From Planctomycetota bacterium (lineage in GTDB: Bacteria; Planctomycetota; Planctomycetia; Pirellulales; Pirellulaceae), in contig JAQBZB010000050.1 of the NCBI GenBank assembly GCA_027622275.1, positions 1 to 40,181 on the forward strand: a stretch of DNA of 40,181 nucleotides. Reading direction: 5' to 3'. Shown here in pieces: positions 17,684 through 21,549 of this stretch. The notes below the pieces were generated by a model. That model was not told the origin of the DNA and searched no databases. It saw only the letters and a list, made by a program, of their open reading frames with translations. Within the stretch, counting starts at the first letter, position 1. Each line of letters starts with the position of its first letter. The translations under genes were made by a program, and so were the position numbers.

Positions 17684-18313
17684 CTCCGTTAGGTCAAACG
17701 ATCTCAACACTTGGCGTTGATACCCGTCGTGATTGCCGGGCCGCTCCAATTGATGTTAGATCCAACACAGGGTTTGGAACATCGACGGCAGTTCGGCAAT
17801 GCTTCCCTTCGGTGACTTCCTTTCCTCGACGGATTCCGCCACTGCGGTCGCAGCTTTGTTCACCCGTGTCGACGGTACTACGAAGTCATCTGACGTCCCA
17901 GCAGCGTTCATGTCAGAAGTGCCCTCGGGGAGGTTCGCTGCCCGTTCCACACCGTAGCGAGGCGATATGGAAACCAAGGGGCTCTCCCGGTTCTCGCGCT
18001 TGGAATGTCAACACATGCACAGGTTCTCAGACTCCGCCGTGTCCGTCGATTCCTCACCAATATCGGAATCGTCGATGTTGCCTTCTCCGAGTCAGGACTA
18101 GATCGGCACACGGAAGTGATGCTTTCGGAGCCGGGTACCCTCTGGGTGGGCTGGCCTGCGTTTCCTCTTGCCGATGCCACACCCGCGACGTTACCATCGC
18201 CAGCGTACGGTTCGAGGCCAGAGTAACTGGCTAGGTCTTCTCTGTAGGACTCTTTCATTCCCAATTCCAAGCCGGTTTATCCCGGCGCTTTCCCTGACCC
18301 CTTTAGACCTCGG

Positions 18314-19848: not shown

Positions 19849-21456
19849 TCACCCGGGAGCGAAAGGCGACCAGCAACGCGGCAACGGCAACTCGACGGCC
19901 GCTCCAATCGACGCGGACCGATAGGCTGCAAACAGAATCTCGGTCGCCGCAGCCGCCACATCGACCGACACTTCGCTCTGCTTTCCTTGCTCGATACAGT
20001 CCAGAAAATGTTTGGCATCGGTCGCCCAGAAGGAAGCGGTTGGCAAGACCCAACCATTCTTCGGCGCGGCCTTGTAGGGACTGTCCGGCCGCGGAGCCCA
20101 CATGCCCATCGGATCGTCCGGATCGCGCGGCGGCGGCGTCCAGGGAACGACATCCGCCCAGACCTCGACGCGCGGCCGATGAGCATCAACCGTCACGGAA
20201 CCTTTCGTTCCAATCAGGCAGACGCGATGCAAGCCCATGCCGGGATGCGATCGCCACCCCGCCCGGCCCGCGCTGATCGTGGCTGTCACGCCGCCATCGA
20301 ACTCCAGCAGCAGCTGGCCAAAATCTTCCATGTCGTGCGATTGATGCTCAGTAAAGAAGAAGTTGCCGGTGGTGCCATGAACACGCGTCACATTTTGGCG
20401 CAGCAGCCACAGCAGCATCGCGATCGGATAGACGCCGACGTTGGTTAGCTCTCGCTTGGCGTCGGGCAACTCGAAACGCGTTGGCGTCTCGTGTTCGACA
20501 CGAGGTCGCGACAGATCCGCGGTGCCGCCATGCCCCTTCGCGAAACAGACGTCACAGTGAACAGCCACAAGATCGCCAAGCTCGCCGGATTCGAGGACGG
20601 CTCGCACTCGCTGAGCCGGATCCCAATGAACTTGCGTGAACATGTGCGCGACGATACGGCTTTCGCGAACGGCCGCCACGATCGAATCCACGTCCTCGAC
20701 CGATCCCGCCAGCGGCTTGTCGAGATAGAGATGCTTTCCCGCCCGAGCAGCCTGGACGATGATGCGGCCGCGTCGATACGGTTCCGCGCAAATGCTGACG
20801 ATGTGGACATCGTGGCGGGCGAGTGCGTCGGTCAAACTCGGCAGCATCGGAATGCCGAGCCGAGCCGCAAGTCGCTGGTTCAACGCCCGGCGTACGTCCG
20901 GCACATCGTCTTCATCGACAACAGCGATCAACGTGCAGCGACCATCGGCGATCAACGCGTCGGCGTAACCTGGCTGATGCGTGTTGTCTCCTGAGACAAG
21001 CAAAAGCCCATAGGGTGGGCTCTCCCCTCCATACCTTAAGGGGTCGGGAGTCTTTTTCGGTGGAAAGTTTTCGCCAACATTGAGTCGTTCGTCCGAAAAA
21101 GACTCCCGACCCCCTCCCGCCTCCCATGAGAACATGCCTCGACTGCCGAACACGACTACTTCGACCAGCGGCTCGTCCGCGAGGCACACTCCCGCCGAAA
21201 CAATCGCCGAGCGTCCTTTTGTAGTCCGGACGAGTTGGCTGATCTGCCGCCTCTGATCACCGATCGCAAACGTGGTTATCGCCGTGTCGCCGAGCCAGGC
21301 GAGCGATCTGTCGACGAGCGACCTAGCAAGAGCGGAAAGCTCATGCGGAGCGTCTGCCAGATGAGCGATCAGACGAACCGCCGCCGGCTCGCCGATTTGA
21401 CCTGTCGCCAAAGCGCGTTCGATAGTTGGAAATGCCGATGTGTATTTCATGTTCAA
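19849..21456 (-). CDS. Gfo/Idh/MocA oxidoreductase with an extra N-terminal domain and an in-frame palindromic repeat
   Basis: This 535-aa protein has three parts. Residues 1-115 (AAVRLIAHLADAPHELSALA, VVVFGSRGMFSWEAGGG) resemble the second domain of a Gfo/Idh/MocA protein, without its Rossmann domain. Residues 116-148 (GRESFSDERLNVGENFPPKK, then TPDPLRYGGE) are encoded by a palindromic repeat. Residues 149-535 are a complete Gfo/Idh/MocA protein: an atypical dinucleotide region (GLLLVSGDNTH), the catalytic DKP motif in GKHLYLDKPLAG and a full second domain (NVGVYPIAMLLWLL). NAD(P)-dependent sugar or inositol oxidation is the family role. The substrate cannot be told. The simplest reading is a fusion at the repeat, or a split pair whose join was made in frame by it. 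Confidence 0.78.
   Translation of the reverse strand: MNMKYTSAFPTIERALATGQIGEPAAVRLIAHLADAPHELSALARSLVDRSLAWLGDTAITTFAIGDQRRQISQLVRTTKGRSAIVSAGVCLADEPLVEVVVFGSRGMFSWEAGGGRESFSDERLNVGENFPPKKTPDPLRYGGESPPYGLLLVSGDNTHQPGYADALIADGRCTLIAVVDEDDVPDVRRALNQRLAARLGIPMLPSLTDALARHDVHIVSICAEPYRRGRIIVQAARAGKHLYLDKPLAGSVEDVDSIVAAVRESRIVAHMFTQVHWDPAQRVRAVLESGELGDLVAVHCDVCFAKGHGGTADLSRPRVEHETPTRFELPDAKRELTNVGVYPIAMLLWLLRQNVTRVHGTTGNFFFTEHQSHDMEDFGQLLLEFDGGVTATISAGRAGWRSHPGMGLHRVCLIGTKGSVTVDAHRPRVEVWADVVPWTPPPRDPDDPMGMWAPRPDSPYKAAPKNGWVLPTASFWATDAKHFLDCIEQGKQSEVSVDVAAAATEILFAAYRSASIGAAVELPLPRCWSPFAPG
21040..21113. repeat. Palindromic repeat inside an open reading frame
   Basis: Arms 21040-21060 and 21093-21113 are perfect 21-bp reverse complements (GGGGTCGGGAGTC type, ending CTTTTTCGG) around a 32-base loop. 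The whole element lies within the Gfo/Idh/MocA gene and keeps the frame, adding about 25 residues. Confidence 0.85.
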
Positions 21457-21476: not shown

Positions 21477-21549
21477 GGCGAGCGGGGTACGGTAGTCCCC
21501 TGATGGGCCGGTGCAGACACCATCAGGGGACTAACGTCCCCCGCTCGCC
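21477..21549. repeat. Large 30-bp inverted repeat after the SigA-like gene
   Basis: Arms 21477-21506 and 21520-21549 match as reverse complements with two mismatches, around a 13-base loop. The arms contain AGTCCCCTGATGG. The element fills the gap between the sigma gene stop (21567) and the Gfo/Idh/MocA start (21456), both minus strand, so it could separate the two transcripts. No T-run follows. Confidence 0.8.

Follow-up and report, generated by a model that had tools for sequence, protein, structure and literature searches.

Introduction

REPINs consist of two inverted invariant ends and a less conserved spacer, fold into a hairpin, measure about 70 bp and are linked to RAYTs (Bertels and Rainey 2011, PMC3116915). 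In TIRYT/TIRtron systems, Y1 genes are flanked by inverted repeats starting with GGGG, some of which belong to dispersed families and also occur as dimers (Di Nocera et al. 2013, PMC3733652; PMC6006769), and the arrangement of a Y1 gene flanked by repeats has been named REPtron or TIRtron (PMC3733652). The same paper describes REPs of the GTAG and CGTC classes lying wholly inside unrelated ORFs, where they contribute 20–30 residues when dimeric, and names planctomycetes as well, with R. baltica having many tyrosine transposases and flanking repeats. Further small repeats overlap coding regions: Rickettsia palindromic elements of about 150 bp are translated in frame in unrelated genes (PMC10969869), and in Coxiella, QMITE1 overlaps annotated ORFs while QMITE2 contains a GTAG REP (PMC5896051). 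Translated in-frame palindromes are thus already known in other bacteria, and the planctomycete case described in this study is a new example.

A perfect hairpin inside an oxidoreductase gene

The window, i.e., the whole stretch of 40,181 nucleotides of planctomycete DNA analysed here, harbors a gene for a two-part oxidoreductase that is interrupted by a palindrome without losing its reading frame. In the following, G000 denotes the genome of the window itself, G001 and G002 are congeners, and G011 is a more distant relative. The features are:

19849–21456, minus strand: host gene, two-part oxidoreductase, 535 aa, TTG start
21115–21456, minus strand: N-terminal part, about residues 1–114, conserved in relatives, with weak similarity to the Gfo/Idh/MocA C-terminal domain
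21022–21114, minus strand: linker, mostly element, delimited by ortholog alignment
19876–21021, minus strand: Gfo/Idh/MocA oxidoreductase part, about residues 146–527
21038–21115, no strand: element plus the adjoining outer base, on either side an A (reading inward) that stands two positions outside GGGG and is nearly constant in the family
21040–21060, plus strand: arm 1, 21 nt, GGGGTCGGGAGTCTTTTTCGG
21061–21092, no strand: loop, 32 nt, differing from copy to copy
21093–21113, minus strand: arm 2, exact reverse complement of arm 1

As stated in the initial annotation, a 21-bp inverted repeat lies in an open gene: positions 21040–21060 and 21093–21113 are exactly complementary, and the frame of 535 residues is intact. 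Longer arms of 26 nt (21040–21065 and 21088–21113) are 92% complementary, with the 21 nt fully so. Searching the window for the arm with up to three mismatches returned just the two arms themselves, and 100 dinucleotide shuffles gave none. RNA folding of positions 21034–21119 resulted in −46.8 kcal/mol compared to a shuffle mean of −26.2 (z −5.8), a value equalled by none of 200 shuffles. Within the single open frame 19849–21456 on the minus strand, the hairpin covers about residues 115–139 and would be translated into about 25 residues with the core GRESFSDERLNVGENFPPKKTPDP. Rfam at gathering thresholds revealed no match at the position of the palindrome.

The suggestion that all six frames can be open applied to the arm, but 10,922 of 20,000 arm shuffles were open as well, and it did not extend to whole copies, which had on average 4.0–4.5 of six frames open, with all six open in only 5 of 78 copies, all of them from G011. 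Loops of G001 displayed 4.2 open frames compared to 3.5 in shuffled loops, a weak test of stop depletion, as the copies share ancestry.

Two other structured stretches were seen in the window. Just upstream of the host gene and before a sigma factor gene, a larger palindrome (21477–21549) has 30-nt arms, 93% complementary, and a 13-nt loop; a 19-base piece of it occurred at no other place, as the six of 362 loci matching it all cover the same site. Furthermore, Rfam identified a group II intron (D1-D4-6, 141.7 bits) at 18022–18253 on the minus strand.

Distribution and anatomy of the repeat family

Judged from similarity at the DNA level, the palindrome is a member of a dispersed and probably mobile family of elements of about 74 bp in planctomycete genomes. 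A DNA search of its own genome returned similar stretches on five other contigs with identities of 72–79%, and in addition one 31-base piece with 90%. A covariance model based on six copies from this genome, including that of the window, and the G001 copy identified nine copies in G000 (17 matches over both strands), so that the repeat indeed occurs elsewhere in the genome. The model matched in 13 of 60 genomes, G000 included, with at least 80 matches in G001 and at least 80 in G011, 51 over both strands in G029 and two weaker ones in G002, perhaps one copy seen on both strands. The exact 17-mer TCGGGAGTCKTTTTCGG, of which an intact copy carries two, was counted 6 times in G000, 60 in G001, 0 in G002, 390 in G011 and 4 in G018, and the reversed control gave 0 in all five genomes. 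An exact scan of named genomes resulted in at least 120 stretches, and the titles among the matches listed were planctomycete with the exception of "bacterium isolate RI_301".

Of the 83 copies listed, 78 had a core (GGGG to CCCC) of 73–75 nt, and the other five were excluded as shortened, degenerate, cut off or too close to a contig end. The family shares the arms of the window copy, with G011 having G at the fourteenth base and a correspondingly changed partner, and the loops of 31–33 nt are highly variable among G000 and G001 copies. The A two bases outside GGGG was found on the left in 37 of 38 and on the right in 32 of 38 copies of G000 and G001, and in 31 and 37 of 40 copies of G011, respectively. 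Most of the 40 G011 copies (L074, L094, L137–L174) have very similar loops in either orientation, which looks like a recent burst.

Among the titles listed for planctomycete palindromes, RAYTs, REPINs or TIRYTs, none reports this family, which the supplements of PMC3733652 may list, and a literature search with four versions of the arm sequence retrieved one unrelated diagnostic paper.

Copies in frame inside other genes

To locate copies relative to genes, 43 were inspected (34 from G001, nine from G000). Six of them lie in frame and open inside recognisable genes, namely the window gene and five others in G000 and G001. The first of these is the ortholog of the window gene in G001, in which just the four conserved residues WDAG precede the element at the contig start. 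In-frame copies with Pfam domains on both sides were identified in the glycerate kinase genes of G000 and G001, the copy being absent in seven other genomes, in the squalene-hopene cyclase gene of G001, which has no insert in G000, G002 and G009, and in a gene of G001 for a PSCyt2/PSD1 protein. In all three genes subjected to alignment, the insertion site is a variable loop or linker.

Pfam was used on ten through-ORFs of G000 and G001 because codon-bias scoring did not distinguish well enough between genic and intergenic copies. Among the remaining ones, copies in two kinases lie outside the kinase domain, a further copy lies ahead of a tRNA synthetase domain, whose translation may begin at a later start codon, and three further through-ORFs of G000/G001 have no Pfam domain. 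Likewise, Pfam revealed no domain in ten additional through-ORFs (nine from G011, one from G000). The premise that palindromes rarely enter genes without breaking them is weakened by the five further in-frame copies and by the intragenic REPs already in print (PMC3733652).

Association with Y1 transposase genes

As a candidate mover, we considered Y1 transposases, for which 21 matches were found in G000 and 77 across six genomes; 45 of the 77 Y1_Tnp matches were scanned as loci with the covariance model. Two of these 45 loci, L317 in G029 and L329 in G056, contain related Y1 transposase genes with the same or similar repeats around them, the model matching on both sides of each gene. The arms of the hairpins on both sides of the L317 gene are identical to the window arm over their first 17 bases, and the L329 hairpins are relatives of that in the window with differing middles. 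Within G000, none of the 21 Y1 loci had a model match, and no Y1 gene was flanked by the exact arm.

Eighteen of the 45 loci, mostly the closest relatives of L317, were additionally inspected for inverted repeats across the gene, which were present at 12; six had none, one of these having its gene at a contig end. GGGGTC or GGGGAC occurred on at least one side at L059 and L063 (G000), L327 and L331 (G001), L324 (G002) and L335 (G011). In G056, a further Y1 gene (L326) has two successive hairpins on one side, with arms beginning with CAAAAGGGGACATT, a further end variant.

The proteins of L317, L329, L331 and L327 matched Pfam Y1_Tnp above cut-off and the NCBIfam model for REP-associated tyrosine transposases at E values of 3e-12 to 9e-21, in each case short of the curated cut-off. 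They share the HUH motif in the form HWH or HYH, and from the class 2 signature, read by eye, we take the Y of the YVERN motif to be the catalytic tyrosine. None of the four revealed a second Pfam domain, such as the C-terminal helix-turn-helix of subclass 2.1, at E 1 or better, and a PDB sequence search with the L317 transposase gave nothing at E 0.001. Two G001 arms 1 kb apart (C976) were considered as the ends of a transposase-bearing unit and rejected, as the ORFs between them show no visible transposase motif; the contig ends in an arm.

Retention of the arms at sites shared by two genomes

Three of the nine G000 copies have a corresponding site in G001: those in the window gene and the glycerate kinase gene, and an intergenic one (L097/L133), which in both genomes has one and the same gene following at a distance of about 100 bp. 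For the window gene, the arms of both genomes differ in 3 of 42 bases and the loops in 12 of 32, and none of 355 arm-shaped windows in the oxidoreductase part was equally similar. The arms of L097/L133 likewise differ in 3 of 42 bases, with loops hardly alike. The G000 glycerate kinase copy is shortened, its arms contain CAGG/CCTG, and partial tandem units precede it. At this locus (L100, 1501–1549 and flank), the shortened element with partial tandem copies of GGGGTCAGGAGTC is in frame. The comparison covered 47 G001 loci and is biased towards conserved copies, as searches find those with good arms. The window loop resembles its G001 counterpart most (score 9, compared to 6 for the next best), which may hint at common descent at corresponding sites, although higher scores of 12 and 11 were obtained for two G000–G001 loop pairs from non-corresponding sites.

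An old insertion decaying neutrally would not have kept its arms so intact, since they differ in only three of 42 bases while synonymous sites of the gene have almost reached saturation (dS about 1.4). During replication, one arm may be corrected by the other. We tentatively consider that the elements might be kept or restored in place, even in a coding linker, by site-specific re-insertion, by such arm-to-arm correction or by selection on the hairpin, a possibility to which we give less than even weight. Selection on structure in G001 is disfavoured because base pairs are lost through the three changes, and the fold of its hairpin is weaker, at −32.2 kcal/mol.

The same data bear on the idea that a function in mRNA or DNA maintains the hairpin, e.g., slowing ribosomes between the domains or, where intergenic, ending transcription. 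The very stable fold of the window copy, the similarity of its arms to those in G001, unmatched by the 355 comparison windows, and the equally well kept arms of the intergenic pair are in line with it. Such a function is nevertheless unlikely in our view: the G001 differences weaken the structure that would be selected, 15 of the 17 genomes carrying the gene have no such element, and eight other linkers in the ortholog alignment contain short inverted pairs at most.

Flanking sequences

An ordinary MITE, bounded by terminal inverted repeats and mobilised by a DDE transposase, would likewise have inverted ends, small size and dispersed copies. We therefore looked at target-site duplication, the criterion for this type, and no consistent signal was found in 78 copies, with most settings near chance. 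Isolated flank excesses over shuffles were present: in G000/G001, k=3 at offset 0 reached z 2.7 (other settings z −1.2 to 1.9), and in G011, z was 3.6 for k=4 at offset 4, 3.2 for k=5 at offset 2 and 2.7 for k=4 at offset 0. Deficits in G011 were equally strong (z −2.3 to −3.1), as expected if flanks are linked to orientation. Together with the fact that the same arm flanks a Y1 gene, this makes a DDE-type MITE an explanation that we regard as slightly less likely again than a conserved hairpin function.

Host gene, linker and age of the fusion

In the host protein, Gfo/Idh/MocA Pfam models matched residues 189–523. The N-terminal part, conserved in relatives over residues 1–112, matched GFO_IDH_MocA_C3 at E 0.041 (0.12 in L028), both below cut-off, and this weak resemblance to the Gfo/Idh/MocA C-terminal domain means that the gene may have arisen long ago by partial duplication. 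Compared with G001, the oxidoreductase part is under strong purifying selection (dN/dS 0.083, dS about 1.4, 379 codons). For the window protein, a single-sequence structure prediction was unusable (mean pLDDT 35).

Searching 241 genomes of the family with a threshold of E 1e-80 or better resulted in an ortholog set of 18 loci from 17 genomes, and the element is present in the orthologs of two of these genomes only, G000 and G001. The N-terminal part was aligned in the same ORF at 12 loci including the window (L355 partially, at the locus edge); the G001 contig begins too late to show it, and five loci could not be scored with the motif used, two of which align over 11–523 and 4–522 without a stop. 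In a comparison of nine sequences, orthologs lacking the DNA repeat did not share its residues.

All 11 relatives with an alignable N-terminal part carry both parts in one ORF without the element, and because of this the fusion is, by these alignments, older than the element. The initial annotation had raised the possibility that the palindrome joined a small upstream gene to a complete oxidoreductase gene, and its position at the join of both parts would suit this. With one ORF in all 11 relatives, where two separate genes were to be looked for, a fusion driven by the element is ruled out for the species compared and, as an explanation, highly improbable. Similarly, the linker measures 33 residues in the window with the element and 34 in G002 without it, and ranges from 26 to 128 across 12 orthologs. 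As far as the alignment tells, the element occupies the linker and does not extend it beyond its usual length. Thus, of the proposed addition of about 25 residues at the domain join, the encoded residues and the position stand, but a lengthening of the linker does not.

Ribosomes could also skip the insert, or it could be excised from the RNA, and it would then be absent from the protein. Bypass elements feature a strong hairpin within a gene, which the intragenic palindrome resembles. This, too, is very doubtful, since all six copies in recognisable genes are in frame and open, although this is a weak argument. Least probable of all is that the assembly wrongly bridged the gene at a repeat. 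In line with such an artefact, several G001 contigs break off inside a copy or close to one, and that of the ortholog starts 14 bases before its element. However, both sides in the window match single-gene orthologs in order and frame, and on the G001 contig, which was assembled separately, the element lies equally far from the conserved Trp codon.

The linker of G002 contains a palindrome of its own, an 11-of-12 inverted pair, which was rejected as a repeat family because its left arm GTAGGGTGGGCC occurs twice in G002 compared to once for the reversed control. In G000, inverted pairs of GTAGGGTGGGCC of about 70–90 bases were seen at G000:C276:16428-16515 and G000:C305:7454-7536, which suggests another small hairpin family.

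Relation to described repeat systems

The planctomycete elements share with the TIRYT/TIR systems dispersed families and Y1 genes flanked by inverted repeats starting with GGGG, and the associated transposases (L317, L329, L331, L327) carry an HUH motif and a presumed catalytic tyrosine. The glycerate kinase copy of G000, GGGGTCAG, fits the end GGGGWSAS, whereas the window arm, GGGGTCGG, departs from this published end at the seventh base (PMC3733652). In that account, the intragenic repeats counted belong to the GTAG and CGTC classes and are not TIRs; these are thus a different repeat class, and the richest species named are O. terrae and R. conorii.

With REPINs, the family has in common conserved inverted ends, a less conserved spacer, the hairpin fold and the size. 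Differences are the lack of a GTAG (or GTGG) foot tag in the consensus and flank counts, and the presence of planctomycete copies also in genes, REPINs being described as extragenic (PMC3116915). A repeat flanking a RAYT-type gene is seen in G029, with 17 arm bases on both sides, but at none of the 21 Y1 loci of G000.

Likeness to the protein-coding palindromes of Rickettsia, as proposed initially, is borne out in effect, a repeated palindrome lying in frame in coding, conserved genes, on the planctomycete side as read from sequence alone. The Rickettsia elements belong to another phylum, measure about 150 bp and are named without a transposase in the description used here (PMC10969869), and the two are likened by description rather than by sequence. 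Coxiella QMITE1 and QMITE2 are likewise small repeats but have 150–400 bp and direct repeats at their ends (PMC5896051).

Most likely origin and significance

Altogether, we consider it quite probable that the palindrome is a non-autonomous REPIN or TIR-hairpin element that was moved by a Y1 transposase, landed in frame and has been tolerated as a translated linker. Such an element would have two conserved ends in inverted orientation, each about 21 nt long, that enclose a variable spacer of about 32 nt. A Y1 (HUH) transposase of the RAYT/TIRYT type would most likely have moved it in the form of single-stranded DNA. One copy would have inserted in frame into the variable linker of a gene already holding both parts and be read as about 25 residues without a function of their own, tolerated because the linker is conserved in neither length nor sequence. 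That a Y1 enzyme moved the window copy is suggested by the repeats around the related genes in G029 and G056; since no G000 Y1 gene was found flanked by the exact arm, a cognate enzyme within G000 itself is something we infer. Besides this result for G000 and the NCBIfam scores below cut-off, two observations speak against this origin: empty sites are not cleanly reconstructable, as the linkers themselves vary, and the arms at shared sites are far more intact than would be allowed if an old insertion had decayed neutrally.

The retention of arms at orthologous sites is a testable puzzle on the persistence of such repeats. The natural insertions in two well-studied enzymes, hopanoid cyclase and glycerate kinase, offer tests of how mobile DNA is absorbed as protein linkers. 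With our analysis, a repeat family of the Planctomycetota joins the protein-coding palindromes, and a Y1 transposase is linked to it as a candidate mover.
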